Source: a virus. From it: 24,573 bases of DNA. How positions within the stretch are numbered: position 1 is the first letter of the stretch; the number at the start of each line of letters is the position of its first letter. The stretch lies in the IMG/VR virus record IMGVR_UViG_3300045257_000490, positions 1 to 24,573 of that record; one strand, 5' to 3'. Of the stretch, positions 7,341 through 24,305 are shown piece by piece. Both the position numbers and the translations under genes were made by a program. A model generated the notes under the pieces. It did not search any database and was not told the origin of the DNA. It worked only from the letters and a program-made list of their open reading frames with translations.

Positions 7341-7547
7341 ATGTCGCTCCCGCCCGAATCCCTGCCGCCCTACTATATGCAGGGCAACGCCATCAACAAC
7401 CGCGTGACCCATAACGATCGCCCGTGGCTCGTGCTGGTCAACCAAGCCGATCCAAATTTCGCGCGCGATCAGCACCACGAGATCGAATACGAGTTCTCCG
7501 GCCGCCGGTTCTACGCCGATCGCAGCAAGCGCGGCGCCTATACCTGA
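7341..7547 (+). CDS. Small phage protein, hypothetical
   Basis: A 68-residue protein (starts MSLPPESLPPYYMQGNAINN) with GAGGA about 9 bases before ATG 7341. It is rich in aromatic and polar residues and lacks a signal or membrane segment. It begins the run of small + strand structural-type genes that leads to the portal. Its TGA stop (7545-7547) is the first three bases of a heptamer palindrome. Function not recognised. Confidence 0.7.
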   Translation: MSLPPESLPPYYMQGNAINNRVTHNDRPWLVLVNQADPNFARDQHHEIEYEFSGRRFYADRSKRGAYT

Positions 7548-7629
7548 TGTCAGATGTCAGATGTCAGATGTCGGATGTCAGATATCGAGAGCGATAGTCT
7601 GACCTCTGTCATCTGATCTCTGACATCTG
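7545..7629. repeat. Heptamer palindrome, GATGTCA type (A1)
   Basis: About five tandem GATGTCA units (with GGATGTC variants) form the left arm and degenerate TCTGACA-type units the right arm, separated by about 15 bases. The left arm supplies the stop codon of the upstream gene and the right arm ends about 10 bases before the ribosome binding site of the gene at 7648. Confidence 0.85.
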
Positions 7630-7647
7630 TTTCCGAAGGAAACACCC

Positions 7648-7872
7648 ATGCCCACCGCCGCTCCCGGCGCCGGTCCGCAGATCGGCCACGTCGTCATTTA
7701 CCGCCAGAACGCCACGACCGCCTATCCGGCGATCATCACGGGCGTGAATACCAACGGCACTGTTTCGCTGACCACATTCCCGCCCGGCGCCGCGCCGGCA
7801 ACGCAGGCGAACGTGGTGCACGATTATTCCGAGAAGAAATCGGGTGCGTGGTTCTATGCGCCTTACCTGTAG
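7648..7872 (+). CDS. Small virion-type protein, hypothetical
   Basis: A 74-residue protein with GAAGGA before ATG 7648. The sequence is Gly/Thr/Ala-rich and beta-prone (IGHVVIYRQNATTAYPAIIT, TVSLTTFPPGA), as in small capsid or tail accessory proteins. The C-terminus (SGAWFYAPYL) is followed directly by a TAG that belongs to the GTAGGGTGGGC palindrome. I recognise no family. Its place just upstream of the portal suggests a structural role, by position only. Confidence 0.7.
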   Translation: MPTAAPGAGPQIGHVVIYRQNATTAYPAIITGVNTNGTVSLTTFPPGAAPATQANVVHDYSEKKSGAWFYAPYL

Positions 7873-7963
7873 GGTGGGCTAAGCGGCGCGGCTTCGCGCC
7901 GCGTGCCCACGCGGATCAAACAAATGGTGGGCACGGGCCTGCGGCCCTTAGCCCACCCTACGG
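7869..7963. repeat. GTAGGGTGGGCTAAG palindrome (E1)
   Basis: The left end GTAGGGTGGGCTAAG is the reverse complement of the right end CTTAGCCCACCCTAC. An inner GC hairpin (GGCGCGGC TTC GCGCCGC) and inner GTGCCCAC / GTGGGCAC pair make a cruciform-like layout. The left end gives the TAG stop of the gene ending at 7872; the right end stops 9 bases before ATG 7972. Similar repeats are common, from memory, in alphaproteobacterial chromosomes. Confidence 0.9.
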
Positions 7964-7971
7964 AATCCAGC

Positions 7972-8394
7972 ATGTCCGATCTCCCTATCCTCCTGCGCTC
8001 CGAAACCACCCGCATGCCCGGGCGTTCGCTGGTGCGCCGCGAGGCGCGGTTCGTGCCCTCGGGCGAGGGCTCGCGCGAACGGTTGCGTGCCGATGTGGCC
8101 GCCGCGCGGGCCGTGCGGAGGATTCTCGACACCGCCTATCCCGGGCATGACTGGGAAGTCGTCGCCGACAGCGGCCAGGGCTACGTTGCGTTCCGTATCC
8201 CGGCGCTGATGGGCATGAACTACGCGTATCTGGTGAAAGGCCGGGACCTCACGCCCGAGGCGATCCTCAAAGGTGGTGGCGAGCTGCTCGAGCGCTACCG
8301 GCTGCCGCGCGGCAAGTTCGATCTCGACCGTTTCCTCGCGGCGCGGGCGGAACATTCGGTCCTGCTCGACCGAACTAAAAAAATTCCTTCGTAG
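7972..8394 (+). CDS. Phage-associated hypothetical protein
   Basis: A 140-residue protein taken from ATG 7972; the open frame extends upstream to 7903, but that part is read from the E1 palindrome. It has mixed alpha/beta character, with a basic helical segment (SRERLRADVAAARAVRRIL) followed by a likely sheet region (GQGYVAFRIPALMGMNYAYL). There is no signal or membrane helix. It lies directly before the portal, separated by palindrome E2 that supplies its TAG stop. No Shine-Dalgarno is evident in the 9 bases between the repeat and the ATG, so translation may depend on the repeat structure. Function unknown. Confidence 0.7.
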   Translation: MSDLPILLRSETTRMPGRSLVRREARFVPSGEGSRERLRADVAAARAVRRILDTAYPGHDWEVVADSGQGYVAFRIPALMGMNYAYLVKGRDLTPEAILKGGGELLERYRLPRGKFDLDRFLAARAEHSVLLDRTKKIPS

Positions 8395-8520
8395 GGTGGG
8401 CTAAGGCCGCCGTAGCCGTAGGCGAAGGCGGACGTGCCCACCACGACCTTTCAACAAATCGCATGACGCTCGTGGGCACGCGGTCTCCGCTGCGCTCCGC
8501 CCGCTTAGCCCACCCTACGG
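8391..8520. repeat. GTAGGGTGGGCTAAG palindrome (E2)
   Basis: A 130-base copy with the same outer ends as E1 and internal GTGCCCACC / GTGGGCACG. The TAG at 8392-8394 ends the upstream gene and the right end lies 9 bases before the portal start. The centre is longer than in E1 and differs in sequence. Confidence 0.9.
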
Positions 8521-8529
8521 AATCTCCCC

Positions 8530-10932
8530 ATGCTCCGCACCACACCACCCGGCGAAGACCCGGTCGGCGAGGCTCGTGTCAGCCCGGTCGGCTTTTTCGA
8601 GCACGGCTCGCCGCCGGGCGAAGACGGCGTCAACGACCTCTACCAGCACGCCTCGGACCTCGCGCTGCCGCCCGGATCGGCCCCGGAGCGGGTGGGTCAC
8701 GACGCGCCCGACTACCTCCATCTCATCACCATCGCCGAGCAGCAGGCGAATCTCTACGTCCAGCAGGTCAACCGGCGCGCCTGGTCGCGCTCTTACCGCG
8801 CGTTCCACAACGAGCACTTCGCCGGAAGCAAATACGGTCACAAGGACTGGTCGAACCGCTCGAAAATCTTCCGCCCGAAGACGCGCTCGGCGGTGCGCAA
8901 GGACGGCGCCGCCGTCGCGGCCTCGCTGTTCGGCACGGTCGACGCCATCACCTGCTCGGCGGGCGACGAGGCCGATCCCACCCAGCGCGGCGCCGCCGCG
9001 CTGATGCAGGAGCTGATCAACTACCGCACCGACCGCACCTCCGGCCGCGCCGCGATTCCGTGGTTCCTGGTCGCCATGGGCGCCAGGCAAGACGCGTCGA
9101 TCGCCGGCATCTGCGCGTCGAAGCAATATTGGAAGCTCGAATTGCGCAAGTCCGAGGACGAGCTCGGTCCGGTCTACGTCCCCGACATCGACAGACCCGA
9201 CATCCGGCTCTTTCCGCCCGAGAACGTGATCATCGATCCGGCCGCCGACTGGACCAACCCGGCGCAGTCCGCCGCCTATCTGCTGCTCAAGTATCCGATG
9301 CGGCTCTACGAGGTGGAGAAGAAGACGCGCGACCCGCTCAACCCGTGGAAGGCGCTGCCGCCCGACCTGCTCAAGGGCAGCGCGGAGGCGAGCAAATTCG
9401 ACGCGGCGGCGATCAGGCGCGCGCGCGAGTTCGGCCTCGACCGGTTCGACGAGACGCAGAACTCCGCCGCGTTCGACATCATCTGGGTCTACGAGGCCTT
9501 CATCCGCATCGACGGCGAGGACAAGTGCTTCTTCGCGCTCGGCGACAAGGCGTTCCTCACCGACCCGAAGCCGACGCGCGAGGTTTACCCCGAGCAGGCG
9601 GGCGACCGCCCGGTCACGATCGGCTACGGCGCGCTCGAGGCGCATCGGATCTATCCCATGGCGCCGGTCGAGAGCTGGCAGCAGACCCAGCAGGAGATCA
9701 ACGACGTCGCCAACCTCTATCTCGACACGATGAAGCAGAACGTCGCGCCGGTCACCAAGGTGGTGCGCGGGAGGAGCGTCGATTTGGAGGCGCTGCACCG
9801 GCGCGGGCCCAACAGCCACATCCTGGTGACCCGGCTCGACGACATCGACTTCGCCAGGCCGGTCGACATCCCGCAGTCGGTGATCGTCGGCATGGAGAAG
9901 CTCGACGTCGACATGGACGACCTCGCCGGCCAGTTCAACGCCGGGTCGGTGCAGACCAACCGCACGCTCAACGACACGGTCGGCGGGCTCAAGCTCATCG
10001 CCGGCGCCTCGAACGCGGTGCAGGAGTTCGACATCCGCCTGTGGATCGAGACCTGGGCCGAGCCGGCGTTGGCGCAGGTGGTGCGGCTCGAGCAGTATTA
10101 CGAGAGCGATGAGATCGTCCTCGGCATCTGCGGGCAGCGCGCGCAGCTGTGGCAGAAGCACGGGGTTTCCCGCATCACCGACGAGCTGATGGACCGCGAG
10201 GTGACGATCCGCATCAACGCGGGGCTCGGCGTCGGCGATCCGCAGCAGCGGCTTGCCAAGTTCCGCGACGCCACCGCCGTGGCGGCGCCGCTGCTCGCGC
10301 AATCGCCCGATTTCCAGAGCGGGAAGATCAAGCTCAACATTTCCGAGATCATGAACGAGTGCTTCGGCGCGGTCGGCTATCGCGACGGCGGCAAGCGGTT
10401 CATCAGCGAGGCCCCGCCCGATCCGGGCCAGGCCCAGCAGGCGCAGATGCAACAGGGGCTCATGCTCCAGAACATCCTCGCCGAGATCGCCAAGAAGCGC
10501 GCCCAGGCCAAGCACGCCGAGGCGCAGGCCGGCCACGCGCAGATGCTCGGCACGGCAGCTATTGCAAAAGTCGGCCTCGAGCACCGGCGCGCGCTCACCG
10601 ACGAGCGCAACTCGGCCTTCGACCACGCCCACCAGGTGCACGACCGGTTGCTCGCCGCCCACGAGCAGGGCCATCGGCACGCGATGGAAGTAGCAGATGC
10701 CAGAGGTCAGATGTCAGATTTCAGAAGTGCAACGGGCGATCCGACCTCTGACATCCGACATCCGACATCCGATGACGCCGCAGGCGTCATCGCCCAGCTC
10801 ATCGCGGCGCTGCGCGCGCCGCGCCCGCCGGTCGAGTTCGTGCGCGACCCCGCGACCGGCCGCATCTCGGGCGCGCGTTATCTGCAACCGCAGTTGCCGC
10901 CGCCGGCCACGAATGCTGCGATTGGACTCTGA
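8530..10932 (+). CDS. Phage portal protein (head-tail connector)
   Basis: An 800-residue protein, long like the portals of podoviruses such as P22 or N4. The portal forms the ring at the capsid vertex through which the terminase pumps DNA. Features include an N-terminal region with YLHLITIAEQQANLYVQQVN and WSRSYRAFHNEHF, the segment IRLFPPENVIIDPAADWTNP in the middle, a helical stem region near 440-520, and a long helical C-terminus (QAQQAQMQQGLMLQNILAEI). The start at ATG 8530 follows palindrome E2. A heptamer palindrome is inserted in frame at residues about 722-749 (QMSDFR, DPTSDIRHPTSDD). The identification rests on length, position between terminase and scaffold, and portal-like segments; the exact family should be checked. 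Confidence 0.8.
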   Translation: MLRTTPPGEDPVGEARVSPVGFFEHGSPPGEDGVNDLYQHASDLALPPGSAPERVGHDAPDYLHLITIAEQQANLYVQQVNRRAWSRSYRAFHNEHFAGSKYGHKDWSNRSKIFRPKTRSAVRKDGAAVAASLFGTVDAITCSAGDEADPTQRGAAALMQELINYRTDRTSGRAAIPWFLVAMGARQDASIAGICASKQYWKLELRKSEDELGPVYVPDIDRPDIRLFPPENVIIDPAADWTNPAQSAAYLLLKYPMRLYEVEKKTRDPLNPWKALPPDLLKGSAEASKFDAAAIRRAREFGLDRFDETQNSAAFDIIWVYEAFIRIDGEDKCFFALGDKAFLTDPKPTREVYPEQAGDRPVTIGYGALEAHRIYPMAPVESWQQTQQEINDVANLYLDTMKQNVAPVTKVVRGRSVDLEALHRRGPNSHILVTRLDDIDFARPVDIPQSVIVGMEKLDVDMDDLAGQFNAGSVQTNRTLNDTVGGLKLIAGASNAVQEFDIRLWIETWAEPALAQVVRLEQYYESDEIVLGICGQRAQLWQKHGVSRITDELMDREVTIRINAGLGVGDPQQRLAKFRDATAVAAPLLAQSPDFQSGKIKLNISEIMNECFGAVGYRDGGKRFISEAPPDPGQAQQAQMQQGLMLQNILAEIAKKRAQAKHAEAQAGHAQMLGTAAIAKVGLEHRRALTDERNSAFDHAHQVHDRLLAAHEQGHRHAMEVADARGQMSDFRSATGDPTSDIRHPTSDDAAGVIAQLIAALRAPRPPVEFVRDPATGRISGARYLQPQLPPPATNAAIGL
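10694..10774. repeat. Heptamer palindrome inside the portal gene (A2)
   Basis: GATGTCA-type units on the left (CAGATGCCAGAGGTCAGATG) and GACATCC-type units on the right surround a 15-base centre. The element keeps the portal frame open through about 27 codons. Most right-arm units carry the stop-free CC variant. Confidence 0.85.
10771..10791. repeat. Perfect 9-bp hairpin in the portal gene
   Basis: GATGACGCC pairs exactly with GGCGTCATC around GCA. It abuts the right end of A2, repeating the theme of a small GC hairpin beside a heptamer palindrome. Confidence 0.7.
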
Positions 10933-10935
10933 CTC

Positions 10936-11036
10936 GTCATGCCCCGCGCAAGCGGGGCATCCAGTACACACCGGTCCCGTTTGTATTTGAAAGATCTGTG
11001 GTTACTGGATCGTCCGCTTGCGCGGACGATGACGAC
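10936..11036. repeat. Two-hairpin repeat after the portal gene
   Basis: The block has hairpin ATGCCCCG / CGGGGCAT (10939-10960), then CCAGTA, a 40-base spacer, TACTGGAT and a perfect 9-bp hairpin ATCGTCCGC / GCGGACGAT (11009-11030). The inner CCAGTA / TACTGG also pair. This layout matches a REP-type element I recall as frequent in Bradyrhizobium-like genomes. It may act as terminator or mRNA stabiliser after the portal. Confidence 0.8.
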
Positions 11037-11057
11037 CGTGGGAATATTATTTACGCC

Positions 11058-11300
11058 CTACGCCAGCTGGTCCGCGGCGGTGGCCTGCGCGATGAGGGTG
11101 GCGCCGATGCGCTCGCAGCTTTGCGCGGTTTCTTTGATCAGCAGCGCGTTGTGCGGCGTCGTCAGATCGATCGTCGCCTTGCACACCGCGCAGGTCATGG
11201 AGGTGCGCCGCAGCAGCAGGGTAACCAGCCGTTCCGTGTATTGCTTGCAGGCGTCGCAGCGGATGCGCAGGAGCGTCAGGTCCGCGGTGGAAAAGCCCAT
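11058..11300 (-). CDS. Small zinc-ribbon protein
   Basis: An 80-residue protein with ATG at 11300 and GGAGC 9 bases upstream. Two CxxC knuckles, C15-D-A-C18 and C37-A-V-C40, 18 residues apart, form a typical zinc ribbon; the rest is helical (LLIKETAQSCERIGATLIAQ). It is on the minus strand, so separate from the phage structural operon. It may be a small DNA- or protein-binding factor. No specific family is recognised. Confidence 0.75.
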   Translation of the reverse strand: MGFSTADLTLLRIRCDACKQYTERLVTLLLRRTSMTCAVCKATIDLTTPHNALLIKETAQSCERIGATLIAQATAADQLA

Positions 11301-11399
11301 GGCGAATCGCTCCGGGGTGTGCGCGGGAGTTTACCCGCTGGTCGCGAGAATGGCGAACGGCGGGCAGGGCGCAATAGCGGCGCAGCCGCGTATTGCGCC

Positions 11400-12377
11400 C
11401 TACGCGGCGCGGCGTTCCCACGCCGCGAGCAGCCGGCGCAGGGATTGCTCCACGTCCGGCGCGGGCTCGAGCCCCGGGCTCTTCGACCCGGGGCCCTCGG
11501 GCACGAGCGGATCGATCGCCGGCTGCAGGGTGGCGGCAGCGATATCGGACGACGCCGTAGCCCGCATGGAGCGGAGCGGAATGCGGGAACTGCTGTTCGG
11601 GTTGCTCGGCAGCCCCGGATTTCGCTCCGCTCCATCCGGGCTACGCGCGCTCTCGTCCTCCGGCTCAGCCTGCGCGAGGATCTCGCGCAGGCTGCGGCGC
11701 GGGCGTCCGGCGCGCCGCGCCGCGCCATCGTTCACACCGCCCGCGGCCTCGTCGTGCACCCTGATCATCCGGCGCCGGGCGCGCACCAGGATCGTGCCGA
11801 CCACGGCGAGCAGCAGCGCGATGCCGAACAGCGCCGCCGGCAGCGCGCCCTGCGCGTCCGTCGCCGCGGCGGGCGCCGGTGCGGCAATTGGCGGCTTCGG
11901 CGCCGCTGGTGGCTTCGGCGGCGCCGGTTCGTTTCTCACCCGTTCGGTCGGCACCGGCCGCGCCCCCATCGGCTGCGGGACGGGCGTCGCGCTCGCGACG
12001 ACGGGCGCGGGCTCGGCGGGTGACGCCGCCGCGATGCCGGTCGCAGCCGCCTCGGGCCAGCGCGTGCCGAAGCCCGGGTCGGGCGCTGCCTCGCGCGCGG
12101 GAACCGGCGGCGGCGCCGGCGCCTCGTCGCCCGCCTCGGGCACCGGCGCGTTGCGCCGCGCGTTTGTTTGTGTCGATGCGCGGCGCCGTTTTGCGTCGCC
12201 GAGGTACCAGCACTTGCGGTGCGCCGCGCGATCGACGCGATAAAACCAATGGCTGCCCTGGGGCGCCTGCGCGTTCGGGCCGGCCAGGCATTCCTCGCCG
12301 CGCGCTGCGCGGTCGGCGCCGGCCGTCGCCGCGATGAGCAGTGCGAGGATGAGCGGAGCGGTCCCTTTGCGCGCCAT
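11400..12377 (-). CDS. Exported, membrane-anchored Pro/Ala-rich protein
   Basis: A 325-residue protein from ATG 12377, chosen because GGGAGGG lies just upstream and a signal peptide begins there (MARKGTAPLILALLIAATAG); the open frame extends to 12653 without support. The mature part opens with a small Cys pair domain (C30 and C56; GSHWFYRVDR, HRKCWYLGD), a motif I recall from Bradyrhizobium exported hypotheticals. A long Pro/Ala-rich linker follows, then a transmembrane helix at about 178-198 (LPAALFGIALLLAVVG) and a cytosolic tail. Residues about 245-274 are encoded by a palindromic element (PDGAERNP, RIPLRSMRA). A host gene, divergent from the pilin-like gene at 12617. Role unknown. Confidence 0.8.
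   Translation of the reverse strand: MARKGTAPLILALLIAATAGADRAARGEECLAGPNAQAPQGSHWFYRVDRAAHRKCWYLGDAKRRRASTQTNARRNAPVPEAGDEAPAPPPVPAREAAPDPGFGTRWPEAAATGIAAASPAEPAPVVASATPVPQPMGARPVPTERVRNEPAPPKPPAAPKPPIAAPAPAAATDAQGALPAALFGIALLLAVVGTILVRARRRMIRVHDEAAGGVNDGAARRAGRPRRSLREILAQAEPEDESARSPDGAERNPGLPSNPNSSSRIPLRSMRATASSDIAAATLQPAIDPLVPEGPGSKSPGLEPAPDVEQSLRRLLAAWERRAA
11557..11645. repeat. GTAGCCCGxATGGAGCGxAGCG palindrome inside a gene
   Basis: The left arm GTAGCCCGCATGGAGCGGAG and the right arm CTCCGCTCCATCCGGGCTAC are inverted copies with a few mismatches around a 30-base centre. It lies in frame in the minus-strand exported-protein gene and adds about 30 residues in its tail. Confidence 0.85.
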
Positions 12378-12616
12378 TCGTCCCTCCCGTTTTCCCTGAG
12401 CAACGGTATCGGGTTCGATTCGGGCCTGAGTGAGTCGCAAAATCGGCGCCGGTGGCGCATTTGTTGGAAGAACGCGCGCACCCGATCCGTGGTGCAAATG
12501 AGGCAATTGTGGCTGAGAACAGACTCTACGCGTTTTTACTGATGCGATTAAATCGGGCTGAGCAAATCGGCTGCTAGTCGATGCGTCGGGGGGCAAGCCG
12601 CGAACGGGGAGGGGTC

Positions 12617-12784
12617 GTGCGCCGATCGCTCGCACGTTTTCTCGCCGACACATCGTCGAGCGCGACCGTCGAGTACGCCCTGCTGGCCACGGGCGTCGCG
12701 CTGGCGATCGTGCTCGGGCTCATGCAGCTCGGCGTGCCCGGCCGCAGCGCCGCGCGGGCGTTGCTGAGATTCAGAAATCAGTGA
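12617..12784 (+). CDS. Degenerate Flp-like pilin
   Basis: A 55-residue product from GTG 12617, chosen because GGGGAGGGG lies directly upstream and because the protein then aligns with the Flp pilin at 4601-4765: leader MRRSLARFLADTSS, then SATVEYALLATGVALAIVLG. Glu19-Tyr20 fall at the same positions in both proteins. An ATG at 12581 would add 12 residues. The Gly before the prepilin cleavage site is replaced by Ser (S14), so processing by a TadV-like peptidase may fail. The tail is Arg-rich (GRSAARALLRFRNQ). Either a diverged pilin-like protein or a decaying gene. The TGA stop is directly followed by a heptamer palindrome. Confidence 0.7.
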   Translation: MRRSLARFLADTSSSATVEYALLATGVALAIVLGLMQLGVPGRSAARALLRFRNQ

Positions 12785-12896
12785 CCAGGTATCAGGTATC
12801 AGGTATCAGGTATCAGCTATCAGGTATCAGCTATCAGGTATCAGGTATCAAGAAATTCAGGTCTTTGATCCCTGATCCCTGATCACCGATGCCTGT
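12785..12896. repeat. Heptamer palindrome, GGTATCA type (C1)
   Basis: About nine GGTATCA units (some GCTATCA) form a long left arm; the right arm is TGATCCC-type units ending GATGCCTG. The left arm is about 70 bases, the right about 35, so the arms are unequal. Confidence 0.85.
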
Positions 12897-13269
12897 TTCG
12901 CGGACGTACCGTAATGCGCACGCCGCGGTAGGGCCAATACGGCCAGCCGGAAACCGGCGAATAGACGCGCGCGGCGCGCGGCGCGCATTCCCCGTTGGGC
13001 GCGCAGACCGGAAAGGCATAAAGCCCGGGGCGCTTCCAGCTGAGGTCGTAGGGGCCGTAGTCGTGGGTATAGTCGCAATAGGGCGCGCATTCGATCGCGG
13101 CCACGGGCGAGGCGGCGAAGATTGCGAACGCGAATAGCGAGTAGCGAATAGCGAATAGGGAACGGCGAGTCTTACTATTCGCTATTCGCCATTCGCTATT
13201 CGCCCTTTCGGCTATTCGCCATTCGCTATTCGCCCTTTCGGCTATTCGCCATTCGCTCTTCGCGCTCAC
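12883..13269 (-). CDS. Cys-rich exported protein with a repeat-encoded N-terminus
   Basis: A 128-residue protein. The only usable start is GTG 13269, which overlaps the TGA of the GlcG-like gene (GTGA), so it is probably translated by coupling. Residues 5-32 are SEWRIAERAN repeats, read from one arm of a heptamer palindrome. The hydrophobic signal peptide (RRSLFAIRYSLFAFAIFAA, about 35-53) is largely read from the other arm. The mature domain (IECAPYCDYTHDYGPYDLSW, then PVCAPNGEC) is Cys- and Tyr-rich and resembles small exported proteins of Bradyrhizobium-type bacteria, from memory. The 3' end overlaps palindrome C1. The mature domain is probably genuine and the N-terminus secondarily acquired. 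Confidence 0.65.
   Translation of the reverse strand: MSAKSEWRIAERANSEWRIAERANSEWRIANSKTRRSLFAIRYSLFAFAIFAASPVAAIECAPYCDYTHDYGPYDLSWKRPGLYAFPVCAPNGECAPRAARVYSPVSGWPYWPYRGVRITVRPRNRHR
13124..13262. repeat. Heptamer palindrome, GAATAGC/GAATGGC type (D1)
   Basis: The left arm (GCGAATAGCGAGTAGCGAAT) and right arm (CTATTCGCCATTCG units) are inverted. The right arm contains an exact 30-base tandem duplication (13181-13210 and 13211-13240), plus a 17-base partial third copy. The element is wholly inside the minus-strand gene 12883-13269. Confidence 0.88.
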
Positions 13270-13736
13270 TGCAGCTTCGCCTTCTCGATGCCGGCCATCA
13301 CGCATTCGGTGTCGACGCCGGGCGATCCGGAAAGGCCGACCCCGGCGACCACCTCGTTGCCGGCCTTGATCGGCACGCCGCCGTCGATGGCGATGACGTT
13401 GGGCAGCGTGGTCTGCTCGCGCCGGACCGGCTCGGTCGCCATGCGCTTGATGAAGTCGGCGGTGGTCATCTTGAAGGTCATGGCCGTGTAGGCCTTGCGG
13501 CGCGCGTTCTCGGTCGTGTGCGGGCTCGCGCCGTCGGCGCGCAGCGACACCACGGTGAGCCCGCCGCGGTCCACCACCACGACGGAGACCGCGTAGCCGC
13601 GCGCCTTGCACGCCTCGAGCGCGTTCTCCGCCACCGCCTTGGCGACGGCGTAGGACAACTCCTTGCGCTCGATGAACTGCGCGCGCGCCGGCACCGCCGC
13701 GACGCAGGCGAGCGCGAGGATGGCGACCAGGCGCAT
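13266..13736 (-). CDS. Exported GlcG/HbpS-family protein
   Basis: A 156-residue protein from ATG 13736, with GGAGG 7 bases upstream; the longer frame to 13823 is repeat-derived and rejected. A signal peptide (MRLVAILALACVAAVPARA, cleavage near residue 19) is followed by a GlcG/HbpS-type domain. Hallmarks are the early helix LSYAVAKAVAENALEACKAR, the strand VSVVVVDRGGLTVVSLRADGA, RRKAYTAMTF, and the C-terminal part GGVPIKAGNEVVAGVGLSGS. Proteins of this family bind small ligands such as haem or cobalamin, or occur in glycolate-like operons; the specific ligand here is unknown. It is a host gene coupled to the next minus-strand gene by a GTGA overlap. Confidence 0.88.
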   Translation of the reverse strand: MRLVAILALACVAAVPARAQFIERKELSYAVAKAVAENALEACKARGYAVSVVVVDRGGLTVVSLRADGASPHTTENARRKAYTAMTFKMTTADFIKRMATEPVRREQTTLPNVIAIDGGVPIKAGNEVVAGVGLSGSPGVDTECVMAGIEKAKLQ

Positions 13737-13761
13737 CGCGGGGCCTCCGGAGTATCGGGGG

Positions 13762-13867
13762 GCAGGTATCAGGTATCGGGCATCAGGTACCGGGATCAGG
13801 CCCCGAGGATGCGTCTGCTCCATCCCGATGCCTGATCCCTGATTGCTGAATCCTGATGCCTGTCAGG
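13762..13867. repeat. Heptamer palindrome, GGTATCA type (C2)
   Basis: The left arm is GGTATCAGGTATCGGGCATC; the right arm is CCTGATCCCTGATTGCTG and neighbours. It lies upstream of the GlcG-like gene, whose ribosome binding site begins about 10 bases away. Confidence 0.8.
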
Positions 13868-13875
13868 ACGGGCTG

Positions 13876-14013
13876 ATGGCGATCGCCCGGGCGGCGGCTT
13901 GGTACCAGCTCATCGATTTGAAGAAGCTCGTCCGCCGGGCGGGCTTGCGCTTCCTGCTGGTGGTTTTTCGGGTCGGGATGCTGCGTTTCCTCGTGCGCTT
14001 GCTCGACATCTAA
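13876..14013 (+). CDS. Possible small hydrophobic protein
   Basis: A 45-codon frame (MAIARAAAWYQLIDLKKLVR start) with an amphipathic, Arg/Leu-rich helix (LRFLLVVFRVGMLRFLVRLL). AGGACGGG precedes the ATG. A competing frame at 13899-14081 looks less protein-like. Short length and lack of homology knowledge keep confidence low. Confidence 0.3.
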   Translation: MAIARAAAWYQLIDLKKLVRRAGLRFLLVVFRVGMLRFLVRLLDI

Positions 14014-14210: not shown

Positions 14211-14309
14211 GGGAATCAGGGAATCAGGCATCAGGCATCAGCGGCGCCTTGATTCCTCGATCTCCGATCCCCCGTCCCTGATCCCCGATCCCTGATCCCC
14301 GATCCCTGG
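14211..14309. repeat. Heptamer palindrome, GGCATCA/GATCCCT type (C3)
   Basis: The left arm GGGAATCAGGCATCAGGCAT is opposed by many CCTGATCCCCGAT units. The last right-arm unit (GATCCCTGG) runs into the GGAG ribosome binding site of the gene at 14318. Confidence 0.85.
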
Positions 14310-14317
14310 AGAAACCC

Positions 14318-14776
14318 ATGGCCAAATACGCAATCACCGGGACGCAATCGACCGTCTCGGGCTCCTACAAGACCGCCCTCGACGTGTTCGCCACCACCGC
14401 GGCGGTGCGGCGCGGCAAGGTCTACGACGTGCTGATCGGCACCAACGGCACGCCGGCGGACAACTACCTGCAATGGGACATTTCCCGCATGACCGCCGAC
14501 GGCACCGGCACCGCGGTCACCCCGAACACGCTCGATCCGGCCGACGTTGCCGCGCTCGCCACGGCCAAGAACAACTACACCGCCGAGCCGACCGTCACCG
14601 CCAACTCCTCGCTGCTCAACGTCGGGGTCAACCAGCGTGCCTCCTACCGCTGGGTCGCCGCGCCGGGATCGGAGCTGGTGTTCCCGGCCACCGCCAACAA
14701 CGGCCTCGTGCTGCGCGCGCTCTCCGGCGGCTACACCGGCTCGGCCACCGGCGACTTCATGTACGAGGAACAGTGA
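14318..14776 (+). CDS. Phage virion-type protein, hypothetical
   Basis: A 152-residue protein; GGAG lies 8 bases before ATG 14318. It is rich in Thr, Ala, Gly and Asn with beta-strand character (MAKYAITGTQSTVSGSYKTA, SELVFPATANNGLVLRALSG), typical of capsid decoration or tail accessory proteins. No signal peptide or membrane segment. Its size and composition resemble the protein at 22489-22947, but I see no clear sequence match between them. The TGA is followed at once by palindrome A3. Structural role inferred from composition and context. Confidence 0.75.
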   Translation: MAKYAITGTQSTVSGSYKTALDVFATTAAVRRGKVYDVLIGTNGTPADNYLQWDISRMTADGTGTAVTPNTLDPADVAALATAKNNYTAEPTVTANSSLLNVGVNQRASYRWVAAPGSELVFPATANNGLVLRALSGGYTGSATGDFMYEEQ

Positions 14777-14778
14777 TC

Positions 14779-14863
14779 GGAGGTCAGATGTCGGATGTCA
14801 GAGGTCAGATGCCGCTTGTCTCTTCTGTCATTTGACATCTGTCATCCGTCATCTGTCATCTGA
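14779..14863. repeat. Heptamer palindrome, GATGTCA type (A3)
   Basis: The left arm GAGGTCAGATGTCGGATGTC is paired with the right arm GACATCTGTCATCCGTCATC and following units. It fills the whole junction between the stop codons of two convergent genes. Confidence 0.85.
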
Positions 14864-18362: not shown

Positions 18363-18412
18363 TCGGGCACCCTATCCCGGCCGAGTTAGCAGGGGCAACC
18401 GGGGATTGATCC

Positions 18413-19468
18413 ATGCCCACCGGCATCACCGGCCTCGCCCAAACTGCCGTCGCCGCGCTCGCTACTACGAGCGAACCGGCGCTGGAATCGAAGTTTCACC
18501 AGCCGTGGTCGGAGCCGGTGAGGCAAAAGATCGCGCCGCAGCTCGCGGTCGCGCTGATCGCCTCGGGCCTCGCCTCCGTCGCGGCGGCGCCGTTTGCCGA
18601 AACGGTCACGCAGGACCGCTGGCATCAGCCATGGTCGGAGCCGGTGCGCACGCGCTGGTTTCCGCCCGCCGAGCAGCAGGCGGTGGCGCCCGATCCCGCA
18701 ACGCGGGTCTCGTTCTCCTGGTGGGCGTGGCTTTCCGAGCCGGTCGTCAAGGCGCGGCCGCGGCTTCGCGAGGCGCACCAGCAATGGCTCGCCTTTGCGC
18801 CGCCGTTCTCCGCCGGCGCGGTGCAGTCGGAATGGTCCGGTCCGCCGCCGAGCCTCGTGCGCTTCCAGTATCAGGTGCACACGCGCCCGCCGTGGCCGGA
18901 CATCAACGCATCCTGGCTGCCGCCGCTCTCGGAGCCGGTGCGGATCCGCCCGGGGCTGCTCGCGGCGCTGCAGCCCTACGAGGTTTCCTACGACGTTCTG
19001 CCGCTGCCGTTCCTCGGTGGCGGTGGCGGCTGGTATCTGCCCGATCCGACCCGACCGCCGTCTTCTGGCGAAGCGTCGCGGACTACGCTCGACGACGCTT
19101 CGCTGGCAATCCGCAAACCTCGGAAGCCCGGCGCGCCGCGCCAGGTCGCGCCGAAAATCGAGCCGCCGAGCTTCGCCGAGGTCATCGGCAATCAGCAGCC
19201 GATGCGGCTTGCCGATGTGCTGGGCTCGGCATTCGCGCCGCGGCTCGATGCACAACAACCGCCGGCGCTCGATCTTTATGTCCCGCCCGCCTCCGCCGTT
19301 CCGGCTACGGCGCGGCAAGCCCCGCTGCCGCGCGCGGTGATCGATGCCGCGGCGGACCACGTCGACGCGATGGACGCCATGGAAGCGATGCACGCGCTCG
19401 ATGAGCTGGAACGGCAGGAGCATGAGGCCTTGATCGCGATCCTGCTGCATCTGGCGAGTGGTGAGTAG
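18413..19468 (+). CDS. Phage structural protein with WSEPVR repeats
   Basis: A 351-residue protein from ATG 18413, with GGGGATT about 7 bases upstream. It contains at least four copies of a W-x-x-(P/W)-x-S-E-P-V-(R/V) motif at about residues 28-37 (FHQPWSEPVR), 70-79 (WHQPWSEPVR), 103-112 (WWAWLSEPVV) and 168-177 (WLPPLSEPVRIRPGL), spaced by 35-65 residues. I recall similar short repeats in phage virion proteins of alphaproteobacteria. The C-terminus is an acidic helix (HALDELERQEHEALIAILLH). The last residues (ASGE) and the TAG stop come from palindrome B1, so the native C-terminus may have been cut or extended. Role in the virion unknown. Confidence 0.8.
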   Translation: MPTGITGLAQTAVAALATTSEPALESKFHQPWSEPVRQKIAPQLAVALIASGLASVAAAPFAETVTQDRWHQPWSEPVRTRWFPPAEQQAVAPDPATRVSFSWWAWLSEPVVKARPRLREAHQQWLAFAPPFSAGAVQSEWSGPPPSLVRFQYQVHTRPPWPDINASWLPPLSEPVRIRPGLLAALQPYEVSYDVLPLPFLGGGGGWYLPDPTRPPSSGEASRTTLDDASLAIRKPRKPGAPRQVAPKIEPPSFAEVIGNQQPMRLADVLGSAFAPRLDAQQPPALDLYVPPASAVPATARQAPLPRAVIDAAADHVDAMDAMEAMHALDELERQEHEALIAILLHLASGE

Positions 19469-19527
19469 TGAGTGGTGAGTAGAAAAATGATCTTCACCAT
19501 TCGCCATTCACCACTCACTACTCGCCG
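19454..19527. repeat. Heptamer palindrome, GAGTGGT/GAGTAGT type (B1)
   Basis: The left arm GTGGTGAGTAGTGAGTGGTG faces the right arm CACCACTCACTACTCGCC, with a centre of about 25 bases. It supplies the stop codon (TAG, 19466-19468) of the upstream gene. The right arm ends 9 bases before ATG 19537, leaving no Shine-Dalgarno. Confidence 0.9.
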
Positions 19528-19536
19528 CCTCAACAA

Positions 19537-19950
19537 ATGACGCGTGATCCGATCGCCTCCCTCGCGCTCGAACGCGCGGCGCTGATCTCCGCCGACATCG
19601 AGGAGCAGCTCACCGCGCGCAATGAGCACGGCATGCGCCCGCTCATCGCCGTGCTGGCGAAGGCGCGGCGCGAGGCGGCGGACGCGATCGCGGCACTGGT
19701 CGACACGGCTCCGTCCGACGCCGCAGCGATCGCGCGCCTGCAGAACGAGGTCAAGCGTTTCGCCGATCTCGTGCGCTGGCTCCAGGAGATCGTCAACGAG
19801 GGGATCGACCAGCGCTACGAGGTCGCCGACAGCGAGCGCGATGAATTGGAACGCCTGGTGGCGCCGGTCGACGATGAAGCCCGCGCCCACGCCCTCGATG
19901 AACTGGAACGGCTCGGCCTTCGCCCGGGCAACGGAAGGATGGATGCATGA
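19537..19950 (+). CDS. Helical phage protein, hypothetical
   Basis: A 137-residue, highly charged helical protein (SLALERAALISADIEEQL, LQNEVKRFADLVRWLQEIVN) from ATG 19537. Its stop overlaps the start of the scaffold-like gene (ATGA, 19947-19950), pointing to coupled translation. No ribosome binding site is visible at its own start because the palindrome B1 ends there. Its placement directly before the scaffold suggests an assembly role. No family is recognised. Confidence 0.75.
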   Translation: MTRDPIASLALERAALISADIEEQLTARNEHGMRPLIAVLAKARREAADAIAALVDTAPSDAAAIARLQNEVKRFADLVRWLQEIVNEGIDQRYEVADSERDELERLVAPVDDEARAHALDELERLGLRPGNGRMDA

Positions 19951-21266
19951 CGACCGAGACCGCCGCGGCCGCGGCTGAAGCCGCCCGCGTTGCCGCCGAA
20001 ACCGAGGCGAGCCGCGAGATCGCCGCGACCGCGGCGTCCGACAGCCCGAATCCGCCGGCGCCGGAAGCGCCGGCGCCCGCGCCACCGCAGCCGGAACCTT
20101 CGTCCGAGCCGAAGCCGCTCGAGCGCATCACCACGTCGGATCGTGGCCGCGCCGACATCGCCGCGCGGTTCAAGGAAAAGCGCGCCGCGGCGGGCGGGCA
20201 GGTCGAGTTTCACGGCAATTTCCAGGACCCGTCGCAGACCTACGGGCCGTATGCGGGGCCGGGCGCCCCGCAGATGTCGGATGACAGAGATCAGAGGTCG
20301 GAGGAGCAGCCGCCGGCGCAACAGCACCAGCAAACCACCGAGGCGCCGCTAGCGCAGCCCGCTCCCCCAACCTCTGACATCCGACCTCCGACATCTGAAC
20401 AACAGCCGCCGCTCACCAAGCTCAAGGTCCACGGCGTGGAGATGTATCTCCCGCAGGACCAGGTGATCGCCGAGGCGCAGAAATCGCTCGCCGCGGGGAA
20501 CCTGCTGGAAAGCGCCAAGGAGGTGCTCAGCGGCGCGCGCCAGCCGGGCCAAGCCGCGGCGCCGCAACCCGAGACGCCGGTCACGGACGACAGCTACACG
20601 CAACTCGCCCAGACGCTGCAGCTCGAGCCCGATGCGGCGGTCGCGGGAGCGAAGCTCAAGGAGACCATCGTCAACGAGACCGCCAAGGCACGCCAGGAAG
20701 CGGCGCGCGAGGCCGGGCGCCAGGTCCGCCTCGAGAACGAGCTTGCCGCCAGCCAGCGCGCGCTCCAGGGGTTCGAGAAGGCGCACCCGGAACTCGCCGC
20801 GGACGAGTTCGCGCGCGATTCGATCACCACGCAGGTGCAGCGCGAGATCAACGCCGATCTCGCCGCGGCGGTCTCGCAAGGCATCCTCAAGGAACTGCCG
20901 AAGACCCAGGACGAGCGCAACGGGCTGCACACGCAATTAAGAGCGTTTGGCGCGCCGGTGCGCCCGATCGGCGATATTTTCGATGCGGCCGGGACGAAAT
21001 ACGCGACGTGGCGGGGCGGCACACCAGCCGCCCGGCCCGCGCCTTCGCCTCAGCCGCAGGCCACCACCACTCAATCCACGGCGCCTGCCGCGCCCCGCGT
21101 CGAGCTCACCACGGCTCGCCAGGAGCGCCGCGCGTCAATCCCCACCCAACCGACCAACGGCACCGTGCCGCCGCGTCCCGCGCCACCGCCCGAGCAAACC
21201 ACGGCCGGGCGACGGAGCGCCGCGATCATGGCGATGCGCAAGGCGCGAGGTCAGATCGTGGCGTGA
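19947..21266 (+). CDS. Scaffold-like protein (head assembly)
   Basis: A 439-residue protein located directly upstream of the major capsid gene, the usual place for a phage scaffolding protein. Composition fits: Ala/Pro/Glu-rich disordered N-terminus (residues 1-60), a helical, charged central part (about 150-310; LKVHGVEMYLPQDQVIAEA, KLKETIVNETAKARQEAARE) and a Pro/Ala-rich tail ending in a basic helix (RRSAAIMAMRKARGQI) that could bind coat protein. A heptamer palindrome is inserted in frame in the linker: left arm at about 109-119 (QMSDDRDQRSEE) and right arm at about 142-151 (TSDIRPPTSEQ). A role as scaffold is inferred from context and composition, not from a diagnostic motif. Confidence 0.75.
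   Translation: MTTETAAAAAEAARVAAETEASREIAATAASDSPNPPAPEAPAPAPPQPEPSSEPKPLERITTSDRGRADIAARFKEKRAAAGGQVEFHGNFQDPSQTYGPYAGPGAPQMSDDRDQRSEEQPPAQQHQQTTEAPLAQPAPPTSDIRPPTSEQQPPLTKLKVHGVEMYLPQDQVIAEAQKSLAAGNLLESAKEVLSGARQPGQAAAPQPETPVTDDSYTQLAQTLQLEPDAAVAGAKLKETIVNETAKARQEAAREAGRQVRLENELAASQRALQGFEKAHPELAADEFARDSITTQVQREINADLAAAVSQGILKELPKTQDERNGLHTQLRAFGAPVRPIGDIFDAAGTKYATWRGGTPAARPAPSPQPQATTTQSTAPAAPRVELTTARQERRASIPTQPTNGTVPPRPAPPPEQTTAGRRSAAIMAMRKARGQIVA
20271..20399. repeat. Heptamer palindrome inside the scaffold gene (A4)
   Basis: The left arm CAGATGTCGGATGACAGAGA (20271-20303) and right arm CCTCTGACATCCGACCTCCG (20369-20399) are inverted, but separated by 65 bases of Gln-rich coding sequence, the widest centre in this class. 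Confidence 0.85.
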
Positions 21267-21283
21267 GGCGGCCTTCGGCCGCC
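21267..21283. repeat. GC hairpin after the scaffold stop
   Basis: GGCGGCC pairs exactly with GGCCGCC around TTC, starting at the base after the TGA and ending at palindrome B2. No U tract, so not a standard terminator; it may lower read-through or protect the 3' end. Confidence 0.7.
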
Positions 21284-21349
21284 GTGAGTGGGGAATGGTG
21301 AATGGGGAGTGGCGATTGCCACTCACTACTCACCACTCACTACTCACCT
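21284..21349. repeat. Heptamer palindrome, GAGTGGT type (B2)
   Basis: The left arm GTGAGTGGGGAATGGTGAAT and right arm CACTCACTACTCACCACTCA are inverted. It lies between scaffold and major capsid genes, 37 bases before the capsid ATG. Confidence 0.88.
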
Positions 21350-21385
21350 TCGCCGCGATCATACCCAACACGAAAGGACACCGCC

Positions 21386-22372
21386 ATGGCGGGCCAACTT
21401 TGGTCCGTCTCCGCGGAAGGCGGATTCATGTATTCGGACGAATTGTCCGACGTGCTCCGTCAGCAGGTCCAGCCGCTCACGAAATTCCGTCAGCTGTGTG
21501 ACGCGAAGGACGGGAGCGAGAAGGGCCTCAACCGCGGCGACAAGTATCACTGGAACGTCTATTCGACCGTTGCCACCCAAGGGCGGCAGCTGCTCGAAAC
21601 CGACCCGATCCCGGAGTCGAACTTCACCGTCAGCCAGAAGACGCTGACCGTGAACGAGGCCGGCAACTCGATCCCCTACACCGGCAAGCTCTCGGATCTC
21701 GCCAAGCACGACGTCGTGTCGATCCTCGACAAGACGCTGAAAGACGACGCGCGCAAATATTTCGACATCGCGGCGATGCTGCAGTTCGACGCCTGTCAGC
21801 TGCGCGCCTCGACCGCGACCTCGACCACCTCGATCACGCTCGACACCAACGGCACGGCGAGCCAGACCAACAACGTCGCGCTCGGCACCGGGCACGTGAA
21901 GGCGATCGTCGACACGATGAAGGAACGCAACGTGCCGCCCTACATCGCTGACGACTACGTGGTGATCAGCCACCCGACCACCTACCGCAACTTCAAGAAC
22001 CAGCTGGAGACGATCCACCAGTACACCGAGACCGGCATCGTCTTCATCTTCAACGGCGAGGTCGGACGCTACGAGTCCTGCCGCTTCATCGAGCAGACCT
22101 TCATCCCGAAGGGCGGGGCGGCGAACCGCACCACCTGGGATCCCTACGCGGGCACCGCGCAGGCGTGGACCAACGCGCAGAGCTCATGGGCGTATTTCAT
22201 GGGCGGCGACACGGTCACCGAGGCGCTGTGCATCCCGGAGGAAATCCGCGCGAAAATCCCGGGCGACTTCGGCCGCTCCAAGGGCATCGCCTGGTACTAC
22301 CTCGGCGGCTTCGGCCTCGTTCACGACGACGCGCTCAACGGCCGCATCGTGAAGTGGGACAGCGCGGCCTGA
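21386..22372 (+). CDS. Major capsid protein (N4 gp56-like)
   Basis: A 328-residue protein from ATG 21386, with GAAAGGA about 8 bases upstream; the frame reaches 21302 but that part is palindrome. The sequence is typical of a major head protein: MYSDELSDVLRQQVQPLTKF, then KFRQLCDAKDGSEKGLNRGD, the strand KTLTVNEAGNSIPYTGKL, a long helix DKTLKDDARKYFDIAAMLQF, and a C-terminal half with DDYVVISHPTTYRNFKN and GIVFIFNGEVGRYESCRF. The N-terminal half recalls the N4 gp56 family of coat proteins with an HK97-type fold. It follows the scaffold-like gene and precedes a decoration-type protein, as in a head module. Intact. Confidence 0.88.
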   Translation: MAGQLWSVSAEGGFMYSDELSDVLRQQVQPLTKFRQLCDAKDGSEKGLNRGDKYHWNVYSTVATQGRQLLETDPIPESNFTVSQKTLTVNEAGNSIPYTGKLSDLAKHDVVSILDKTLKDDARKYFDIAAMLQFDACQLRASTATSTTSITLDTNGTASQTNNVALGTGHVKAIVDTMKERNVPPYIADDYVVISHPTTYRNFKNQLETIHQYTETGIVFIFNGEVGRYESCRFIEQTFIPKGGAANRTTWDPYAGTAQAWTNAQSSWAYFMGGDTVTEALCIPEEIRAKIPGDFGRSKGIAWYYLGGFGLVHDDALNGRIVKWDSAA

Positions 22373-22375
22373 CGG

Positions 22376-22392
22376 CGCGCGCGAAGCGCGCG
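22376..22392. repeat. GC hairpin after the capsid stop
   Basis: CGCGCGC and GCGCGCG pair around GAA, 3 bases after the stop codon and directly before palindrome B3, the same layout as after the scaffold gene. Confidence 0.7.
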
Positions 22393-22393
22393 C

Positions 22394-22466
22394 GTGAGTA
22401 GTGAATGGCGAATAGCGAATAGACCAATCGCTCCACTTCACCACTCACCACTCACTACTCACCATT
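22394..22466. repeat. Heptamer palindrome, mixed GAGTAGT/GAATAGC type (B3)
   Basis: The left arm GTGAGTAGTGAATGGCGAAT contains both B-type and D-type units, showing that these two types intergrade. The right arm is CACCACTCACCACTCACTAC and following bases. It ends about 22 bases before ATG 22489. Confidence 0.88.
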
Positions 22467-22488
22467 CCTCAACGAAGGAATCCAACCA

Positions 22489-22947
22489 ATGACAATTCCC
22501 GCGCACTACGCCCAAGCGCAAGTCGAGGTGATCACCATCCCCTCGTCCGCGTTCGGCGCCACCACGGCGACCTACAACTACATCGGCCCCAAGGGCCGCG
22601 AGGGCCACGTCGAGGACATCGTCGTCGACATTTCCGCCAACATGGTGGGCACCACCACCGTGCCGGAAGTCGACGTCGGTACCGCCTCGGGCGACGCGAC
22701 CTACGCACGCTACCGGCTTGGCTCCTCGGCCACGTCGGGTTATCTCGCCTCGGCCACGCCGAAACGGGCCAGCCAGGAGGCGTGGACCGGCAATCCGCCG
22801 ATCACGCTCTCCGACTATGCCGGGCACGTCGCGCTCAACAAGGCGCGCATCCCCAAGGACACGGCGTTCGTGATCACGCTCGGGGCAGGGGTCGGCGGCA
22901 CGCCGGCCGGCACGGCCAGCGTGTACGTGATCATCAAGTGGTTCTGA
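22489..22947 (+). CDS. Capsid decoration-type protein
   Basis: A 152-residue protein with GAAGGA before ATG 22489. It is beta-rich and Thr/Gly/Ala-rich (QVEVITIPSSAFGATTATYN, SVYVIIKWF at the C-terminus), without signal or membrane segment. The position directly after the major capsid gene is typical for a decoration or head-stabilising protein. The function is inferred from position and composition only. Confidence 0.75.
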   Translation: MTIPAHYAQAQVEVITIPSSAFGATTATYNYIGPKGREGHVEDIVVDISANMVGTTTVPEVDVGTASGDATYARYRLGSSATSGYLASATPKRASQEAWTGNPPITLSDYAGHVALNKARIPKDTAFVITLGAGVGGTPAGTASVYVIIKWF

Positions 22948-22956
22948 GGACCAACC

Positions 22957-23051
22957 GTAGGGTGGGCTAAGCGGACGGAGCGCAGCGCAGGCCGCGTGCC
23001 CACGCGTGGGCACGTTCGCTCGCATGCGCTCGCGCCCTTAGCCCACCCTAC
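22957..23051. repeat. GTAGGGTGGGCTAAG palindrome (E3)
   Basis: The outer ends GTAGGGTGGGCTAAG and CTTAGCCCACCCTAC, with an inner GTGCCCACGCGTGGGCAC palindrome. It begins 10 bases after the TGA of the upstream gene, so here it does not supply the stop. It ends just before the CGGAGG ribosome binding site of the gene at 23066. Confidence 0.9.
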
Positions 23052-23065
23052 AATCGGAGGCTCCA

Positions 23066-23278
23066 ATGTTCGGCCGCCTGCGCAACGTTCCGGAGAAGCT
23101 GAAACAAGCCAATCCGCTTCCGGAGAACCGCAAAGTATCCGCGACCGGCGACGCCGGCCGCGACGGCTACAGCTGCCTGTCCCGGGCCAATCGAGAAGAT
23201 GGCGTGCGGCCGCCTGCGGGCGGAGGCACCCGCGTCGACTGGCCCCCCAAGACGGATGCGGAAGATTACACGCCGTAG
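23066..23278 (+). CDS. Small hypothetical phage protein
   Basis: A 70-residue protein; CGGAGG lies 7 bases before ATG 23066. It is hydrophilic and basic at the N-terminus (MFGRLRNVPEKLKQANPLPE) and probably largely disordered. The frame ends in TAG at 23276-23278, read from palindrome E4. Flanked on both sides by E-type palindromes. Function unknown. Confidence 0.7.
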   Translation: MFGRLRNVPEKLKQANPLPENRKVSATGDAGRDGYSCLSRANREDGVRPPAGGGTRVDWPPKTDAEDYTP

Positions 23279-23371
23279 GGTGGGCTAAGGCCGCGAAGCG
23301 CAAGCGGAACGGCCGTGCCCACGCGTGGGCACGCGGTCTCCGCTTTGCTGCGCCCGCTTAGCCCACCCTAC
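23275..23371. repeat. GTAGGGTGGGCTAAG palindrome (E4)
   Basis: Same outer ends as E1-E3 and inner GTGCCCACGCGTGGGCAC. The TAG near its left end stops the upstream gene; the right end lies 24 bases before the next ATG. Confidence 0.9.
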
Positions 23372-23395
23372 AACCAAACAAACAGGAGAACCACC

Positions 23396-23725
23396 ATGGC
23401 TGACAACTACGGCCGCGAGCGCCGGCCCGACCCGCGCTTCGGCAAGTTCACCGAGGCCGAGGTCGAGGCCGGCACCGATGCCGGCACCGGCCGCGGCAAT
23501 CCCAAGCTGCACGAGAGTTCGGGCATCGTCGAGGAGAAGGTCGCGCACGGGCAGACCGTCAAGCGCGCCTACCCGCTCGACACCTCCGACATGACGCTCC
23601 CCAACGAGCACGGCATGGAGGGATGGAAAGGCGCGCCCGACAACGTGCGGCACTCCCTCGACGGGGCCTCCGCCGTCATGGGCCCGAACGACGGGAACGA
23701 GAGCCCGTACATTCCGAACCACTGA
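23396..23725 (+). CDS. Acidic hypothetical phage protein
   Basis: A 109-residue protein from ATG 23396, supported by AGGAGA 7 bases upstream; the frame upstream is palindrome E4. It is acidic, Gly/Asp/Asn-rich and probably flexible (FGKFTEAEVEAGTDAGTGRG, NEHGMEGWKGAPDNVRHSL). It could be a minor virion or adaptor-type protein judged by its place in the run after the capsid gene. No family is recognised. Confidence 0.7.
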   Translation: MADNYGRERRPDPRFGKFTEAEVEAGTDAGTGRGNPKLHESSGIVEEKVAHGQTVKRAYPLDTSDMTLPNEHGMEGWKGAPDNVRHSLDGASAVMGPNDGNESPYIPNH

Positions 23726-23726
23726 C

Positions 23727-23740
23727 GCGCGCTTGCGCGC
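23727..23740. repeat. GC hairpin after the 23725 stop
   Basis: GCGCGC pairs with GCGCGC around TT, starting 2 bases after the stop and followed at once by palindrome B4. Third case of this layout. Confidence 0.6.
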
Positions 23741-23741
23741 G

Positions 23742-23822
23742 CTTGTGAGTAGTGAGTGGTGAATGGCGAGTAGCAAGCGCCGCCCGCCTTCACCACTCAC
23801 CATTCACCATTCGCCACTCACA
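23742..23822. repeat. Heptamer palindrome, GAGTAGT/GAATGGC type (B4)
   Basis: The left arm TTGTGAGTAGTGAGTGGTGA and right arm CACCACTCACCATTCACCAT and following units are inverted around a centre of about 20 bases. Ends 15 bases before ATG 23838. Confidence 0.9.
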
Positions 23823-23837
23823 CTTCAAGGGACCGCC

Positions 23838-24305
23838 ATGCCCGAACCGCATCTGCTGCGCCTCGACCGCGCGCGCTACCATTCGAGCGTGCACGGCGAG
23901 TTCCAGAGCGCGACGCACTATTGGCAGGACGGCTTGCCGTTCGATGCGCTGGGCCATCTCGTCATGGGCGAGTGCTCGCCCGAGCAGCTCGCCAAGGCGG
24001 AGGCCAAGGCACCGCGGCGCCAGATGTCAGATGCCGGATGTCAGAGGTCGGAAGCGAGCGATCCGTCATCTGACATCTGTCATCCGACATCCGAGGTGAA
24101 TCTCGAACTCTGGGCCAAGGGCGAGGCGCGCTATCTGCCCGGCAAGGTCTTCGCCGCGATCCGCGAGCGCTACAACAAGTCGGTCACCACCTTCGCCGAC
24201 GCCATCGAGTTCCTGGTCAATGACGTGAAGCTCGTCGCACGGGAGCAGGCCTCGACCAAGCTGCTCTCCATGGGCCGCGTGAAGGCGGGGCCGGAGGAGG
24301 CTTGA
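23838..24305 (+). CDS. Phage-associated hypothetical protein with in-frame repeat
   Basis: A 155-residue protein from ATG 23838, preceded by AAGGGA; the longer frame from 23763 is palindrome-derived. The N-terminal domain (LLRLDRARYHSSVHGEFQSA, THYWQDGLPFDALGHLV) and C-terminal helical domain (IRERYNKSVTTFADAIEFLV) are separated by about 25 residues (62-86) read from a heptamer palindrome. The flanking domains look like ordinary compact protein, so the repeat seems to be tolerated as a linker. Function not recognised; last gene of the structural run in the window. Confidence 0.75.
   Translation: MPEPHLLRLDRARYHSSVHGEFQSATHYWQDGLPFDALGHLVMGECSPEQLAKAEAKAPRRQMSDAGCQRSEASDPSSDICHPTSEVNLELWAKGEARYLPGKVFAAIRERYNKSVTTFADAIEFLVNDVKLVAREQASTKLLSMGRVKAGPEEA
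24021..24094. repeat. Heptamer palindrome inside the 23838 gene (A5)
   Basis: The left arm CAGATGTCAGATGCCGGATG and right arm CATCTGACATCTGTCATCCG and following units are inverted around a centre of about 15 bases; frame is kept. Confidence 0.88.

Follow-up and report, generated by a model that had tools for sequence, protein, structure and literature searches.

In Xanthomonas, degenerate GGGNATC heptamers form 70–75 convergent pairs per genome; the resulting inverted repeats are intergenic, with a mean distance of 28 nt to the neighbouring ORF on the 5′ side (Rehm et al., 2015; PMC4692102). Heptamer repeats of Calothrix are among the cases cited in PMC4692102. In heterocystous cyanobacteria (Nostoc), degenerate STRR heptanucleotide repeats base-pair in the P6b hairpin of the tRNA-Leu intron (PMC3488679). 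Beggiatoaceae contain dispersed intergenic tandem TAACTGA heptamers, which are direct and located just upstream of start codons, with one indirect case (PMC4679880). REPs are found less than 20 bp from both ORF ends of convergent genes, and intragenic copies also occur (Di Nocera et al., 2013; PMC3733652).

The stretch of DNA analyzed here (the window), a virus record of 24,573 bases, includes genes for the terminase large subunit (508–2610), an SU10-like portal protein (8530–10932), and the major capsid protein (21302–22372). Between positions 7546 and 24094 it contains 13 inverted repeats with arms of tandem heptamers (Table 1). An earlier, sequence-only reading had reached the same total but split the families differently, with four B and three C elements where our recount gives three and four. 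Its claim of a 7-base period was borne out. Counting 14-base windows with at least 12 matches at lags from 2 to 24, we obtained 216, 162, and 59 at lags 7, 14, and 21, respectively, whereas no other lag exceeded 11. The proposed mirror layout with the purine-rich word first is also real. Searching the window for periodic arrays that have a complementary partner, we found 12 pairs at period 7 and a single pair at period 10; the other periods between 4 and 12 gave none. TRF and an inverted-repeat finder are concordant with mirrored heptamer arms. In the window and close relatives, elements starting with the purine-rich word outnumber those of opposite polarity 27 to 1 in family C/D and, more weakly, 14 to 5 in A and 9 to 4 in B. 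Degeneracy of the words is limited to unit positions 3, 5, and 7. On at least one strand, each of the 13 elements folds much more stably than shuffled sequences do (z from −5.7 to −10.7).

Table 1. Mirrored heptamer elements of the window (positions refer to the whole window)
Element	Position	Strand	Description
A1	7546–7629	.	GATGTCR heptamers; left arm of 6 units
A2	10694–10772	.	In frame in the 3′ part of the portal gene (8530–10932)
B1	12786–12895	.	GGNATCA heptamers; left arm of 9 units, right arm of about 4
D1	13130–13263	.	GAATAGC heptamers; right arm (13181–13263) is a 30-bp tandem unit ×2.8, 98% alike
B2	13763–13862	.	GGNATCR heptamers
B3	14212–14309	.	GGNATCA and GGGATCG units mixed
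A3	14777–14862	.	Starts at the stop codon of gene 14318–14776
C1	19456–19523	.	GAGTRGT, 4+4 units; provides the stop codon of gene 18413–19468; missing or replaced in relatives
A4	20271–20397	.	In frame within gene 19947–21266; arm spacing about 50 nt
C2	21284–21348	.	GARTGG/GAGTAGT, 4+4 units; between gene 19947–21266 and the major capsid gene
C3	22394–22464	.	4+4 units; 3′ of the major capsid stop codon; slot empty or occupied by another family in relatives
C4	23744–23822	.	4+4 units; same slot has A-type in L020 and B-type in L021
A5	24021–24094	.	In frame within gene 23763–24305; A-type retained in L019, L020, L023, L024, and L027

The earlier reading correctly noted the mixed units of B3 and the two transitions that separate GATGTCA from GGTATCA, but the common origin of families that it proposed finds only partial support. 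The non-random order of unit variants, described below, suggests that the C/D elements may descend from one ancestral element; for the word families A, B, C/D, and E we found no evidence of descent from one another. It is conceivable that an activity dedicated to this task and indifferent to sequence, be it a polymerase, a reverse transcriptase, or a repair function, advances in 7-nt steps and builds mirrored heptamer hairpins de novo at gene ends from different seed words. The unrelated word families GATGTCA, GGNATCA, GARTRGN, and GTRAYCR would then have arrived at a common architecture, both in phages and in several proteobacteria. We regard this as distinctly improbable.

Other palindromes are also present in the window. 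GTAG-tagged REP-like palindromes (GTAGGGTGGGCTAAG...CTTAGCCCACCCTAC), which are also found in phage spacers, occur at 7869–7961, 8393–8520, 22955–23052, and 23275–23371, and further host-type palindromes at 10934–11035 (CGTCATGCCCCGCG...) and 11556–11645 (CGTAGCCCGCATGGAGCGG...). An HbpS-like gene, apparently a moron, lies on the opposite strand within the phage structural region (13266–13823, minus strand).

A capsid search yielded 79 related viral loci. Purine-first mirrored elements number 40 in 173 kb of close relatives versus 1 in 430 kb of distant ones. Among 2.9 million viral contigs, the exact mirrored pattern was found in one contig for the A-word and in six for the D-word; thus, the trait is concentrated in few phages, the lineage of the window among them. 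Orthologous phage spacers often contain an element of a different heptamer family or a palindrome of a different class, and one site is occupied by family B, C, or D, or by nothing, depending on the relative. The slot 3′ of the capsid stop codon contains a B-type element in L175, C/D-type elements in L089, L174, and the window, and only ‘GCAG’-like empty spacers in L172, L020, L024, and L033; the flanks are 80–94% identical. No target-site duplication was seen in the filled and empty phage pairs, the flanks of which have diverged. The spacer upstream of the capsid gene in L023–L026 is filled by CGTC-type palindromes. A blastn comparison of B1 and D1 with plasmids gave no matches.

Some of the elements are located within genes. 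Three in the window (A2, A4, and A5) are in frame, all in genes of the virion region, and the portal gene of one relative has an inserted heptamer element that leaves the reading frame open. The coding-strand hairpins of in-gene phage copies tend to be weaker. A single spot in the portal gene (L171, 5164–5263; L170, 1983–2055) is occupied in one of these relatives by a heptamer element in frame and in the other by an insertion of unrelated sequence, marking a length-tolerant segment of the protein. Palindromes in frame inside protein genes are also known from Rickettsia, as the Rickettsia palindromic elements (RPE), which the in-gene phage copies resemble in this respect, although we know of no RPE with heptamer arms. 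Some RPE carry the CGTC tag (PMC3733652). In two loci (L153, 9636–9775; L019, 1093–1207) the loop between heptamer arms is replaced by a different palindrome, as if palindromes nest. Two others from different genomes (L142, 8583–8786, in G206; L151, 338–506, in G203) have arms of up to 16 units around centres of 58 bp that resemble each other and end in CAACCGGCTAACTT.

In bacteria, the exact pattern of three GARTRGY units is present in 38 of 398 Pseudomonadota genomes, frequently as plus/minus pairs, with few hits in the control. The A/B-word pattern gave 4 hits in these genomes versus 2 in the reversed control; as this is near the control level, we do not claim a wide spread of A/B words from that scan. 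Several of the richest genomes presumably belong to Bradyrhizobium: their 16S V3–V4 regions match a Bradyrhizobium sequence at 402–404 of 404 positions. Because a sample collected by similarity to one element (39 copies) could be biased in unit number and order, the analysis was repeated on 40 sites found by pattern. Mirrored arms are present at 39 of the 40 pattern-found sites. The Bradyrhizobium elements are 65–85 bp long and have a short loop and arms of 28–33 nt, about four heptamers; exactly four units were counted in 66 of 78 arms of the similarity sample and in 58 of 78 of the pattern sample. The order of unit variants is non-random (0 of 2000 and 4 of 2000 shuffles, respectively) and is common to different loci. 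In both samples, the likeness of the two arms of one element at variable positions is 0.63 versus 0.665 for random arms. Mirror-copying of arms is thus rejected.

Such arrays could be produced by microsatellite growth, in which 7-base polymerase slippage and template switching make mirrored arrays in place, without transfer between sites. In many bacteria, no long simple-repeat unit is commoner than the heptamer according to the summaries in PMC4679880 and PMC4692102, and long arrays of at least 12 units are present in G206, G203, and G283. However, growth of this kind is difficult to reconcile with a unit number mostly fixed at 4+4, with the common variant order, with arms that are not mirror copies of each other, and with degeneracy at only three unit positions. 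At orthologous sites, the check proposed in the earlier reading, we observed paired arms and a mostly fixed unit number, and no random growth lacking a paired arm. Microsatellite growth is therefore highly improbable.

The placement of the Bradyrhizobium copies is uniform. They start at a median of 5–6 nt from the stop codon (6 nt in the pattern sample), and in the similarity sample the boundaries of most copies are within 0–9 nt of gene ends on both sides. No element lies between divergent genes (0 of 28 in the similarity sample, 0 of 31 in the pattern sample), and all 31 classified pattern sites are codirectional or convergent, with gene directions approximated by a codon model trained on phage genes. 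In unbiased Bradyrhizobium sequence, a strong hairpin is present in 56% of the spacers between convergent genes and in 23% of those between codirectional genes, but in none of the 13 divergent spacers. Hairpins straight after stop codons, common between convergent genes, are also what one would see if these were canonical intrinsic (Rho-independent) terminators that happen to consist of heptamers. Such terminators combine a GC-rich hairpin with a U-tract, but six or more T within 9 nt after the stem occur at 0 of 78 stem ends, and a terminator scan of the window flags 0 of 13 elements, with no more hits than in shuffled sequences. As the stem lacks a U-tract, this explanation is rejected, and its probability is practically negligible.

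The copy in the tuf–rpsJ spacer is present in 30 of 30 aligned Bradyrhizobium species, most of which retain two four-unit arms. Its mRNA-sense hairpin is the stabler one in 27 of the 30, although these species are related and do not represent independent counts. RNAalifold found little covariation on the antisense strand of this alignment. Outside tuf–rpsJ, the transcribed strand is the more stable in 13 of 34 phage elements and in 4 of 8 codirectional Bradyrhizobium copies. Selection at the RNA level is thus not visible in general, a general selection for the RNA sense is unsupported, and neither is a sense-RNA-specific role supported in the phage elements. The long RNA hairpins foreseen in the earlier reading are indeed predicted, on both strands, but the mRNA strand is not favoured among the phage elements.

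Two orthologous convergent slots, found via their own heptamer elements, were studied in 26 (L215) and 29 (L240) species. A hairpin with z below −2 is present in 26 of 26 and 25 of 29 species, respectively. With classes assigned by motif, L215 contains a heptamer element in 6 species, a GTAG-REP-like palindrome in 15, a CGTC-REP-like one in 2, and CCCTCCCC in 3. The corresponding numbers for L240 are 8, 13, 3, and 0; at this slot, four species have an extra gene and in one the hairpin is absent. The class differs between close relatives, such as G424/G440 and G407/G429. On the flanking-sequence tree, the class has changed at least 11 times in L215 and at least 13 times in L240, counts that interspecies recombination could inflate; the L215 count is no fewer than with shuffled labels. 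These data suggest that what bacteria and their phages require at such gene ends is a hairpin rather than any specific sequence.

Based on these observations, we consider it fairly probable that the elements are dispersed extragenic palindromes that resemble REPs, have a build of their own, and act as sequence-independent, bidirectional 3′-end mRNA hairpins, in slots that are refilled by other classes. Located right after the stop codon and read in either direction, such an element would give the mRNA a long 3′-terminal hairpin, and one hairpin would serve both genes of a convergent pair. Because there is no U-tract, the most likely role is that of a 3′-end stabiliser or of a stop point for exonuclease trimming after Rho-dependent termination. 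New copies would be gained by copying from elsewhere, and a slot may be repeatedly refilled by GTAG-REP, CGTC-REP, or CCCTCCCC palindromes because only the hairpin matters. A phage lineage of putative Bradyrhizobium-like hosts would have accumulated the elements in the spacers of its late genes and, as in-frame copies, in protein segments that tolerate them. The likeness of arms slightly below the random level is odd if pairing is strongly selected and, like the missing general preference for the transcribed strand, counts against a hairpin function; the elements may also lie near stop codons simply because insertions are tolerated there.

The strongest competing explanation invokes a REP-like element that is purely selfish but lands with the same bias. 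Here, inert REP/MITE-like palindromes would be moved by a RAYT-like or other transposase, remain near stop codons since insertions elsewhere are purged, and often land in or near older palindromes. The clean filled and empty sites in phage relatives, the many class changes at single sites, the in-frame insertions carried by three genes of the virion region and by the portal gene of a relative, the nested palindromes of L019 and L153, and a unit order that looks inherited from a common ancestor all agree with this scenario. On the other hand, a hairpin is nearly always present in both convergent slots tested, the boundaries match gene ends on both sides in most copies, and neither a terminal tag nor, given the diverged flanks, a target-site duplication was seen. 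We consider the selfish explanation unlikely.

If a slot does require a hairpin of whatever sequence, REPs, heptamer elements, and other palindromes can stand in for one another in finishing mRNAs, which would help to explain the persistence of many unrelated palindrome families at bacterial gene ends. The orthologous slots make this interchangeability directly testable, with four hairpin classes at one site across dozens of species. The data also reveal that one phage lineage abounds in palindromes of host type, some of them in frame within virion genes, and they extend mirrored heptamers beyond Xanthomonas.

The literature searched for the exact element sequences and unit arrays gave no match. 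The earlier remark that no described element of this exact design was known holds only in part, since convergent heptamer pairs are described in Xanthomonas (PMC4692102) and a similar design in tRNA-Leu introns of Nostoc. The Xanthomonas repeats are, as here, tandem degenerate heptamers in convergent pairs, and the B word GGNATC(A/G) is a rotated GGGNATC. However, only the B units (GGNATCR) come near the G-quadruplex-capable Xanthomonas unit, whereas A, C/D, and E have no G-tracts. The Xanthomonas study emphasized G-quadruplexes and a single word; our elements use several words that lack G-tracts and differ further in their fixed 4+4 build, their carriers among phages and Bradyrhizobium, and their swapping with REPs. 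The cyanobacterial STRR/P6b repeats likewise form hairpins of degenerate heptamers, but they are confined to the intron or to direct arrays, use other words, and show no gene-end placement. The TAACTGA repeats of Beggiatoaceae, an unrelated lineage, are also intergenic tandem heptamers, but direct and before start codons, unlike the mirrored elements after stop codons described here. GTAG- and CGTC-REPs (PMC3733652) and Br-REP1/2 (PMC5082802) are similarly dispersed, adjacent to stop codons of codirectional or convergent genes, and sometimes intragenic, and REP-like palindromes fill the same orthologous slots as the heptamer elements. Nevertheless, REPs are single palindromes of 20–40 bp with an unpaired GTAG/CGTC end tag, whereas the heptamer elements are 65–85 bp long with 4+4 tandem units, their arms begin directly with heptamers, and the flanks of the 39 Bradyrhizobium copies have no common tag by eye. 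Lacking the REP tags and size, they are not classed as REPs, though they apparently work like them. Thus, mirrored heptamers are partly known; the novelty is in the many words, the wide spread, the fixed 4+4 build, the density in one phage lineage, and the swapping with REPs.
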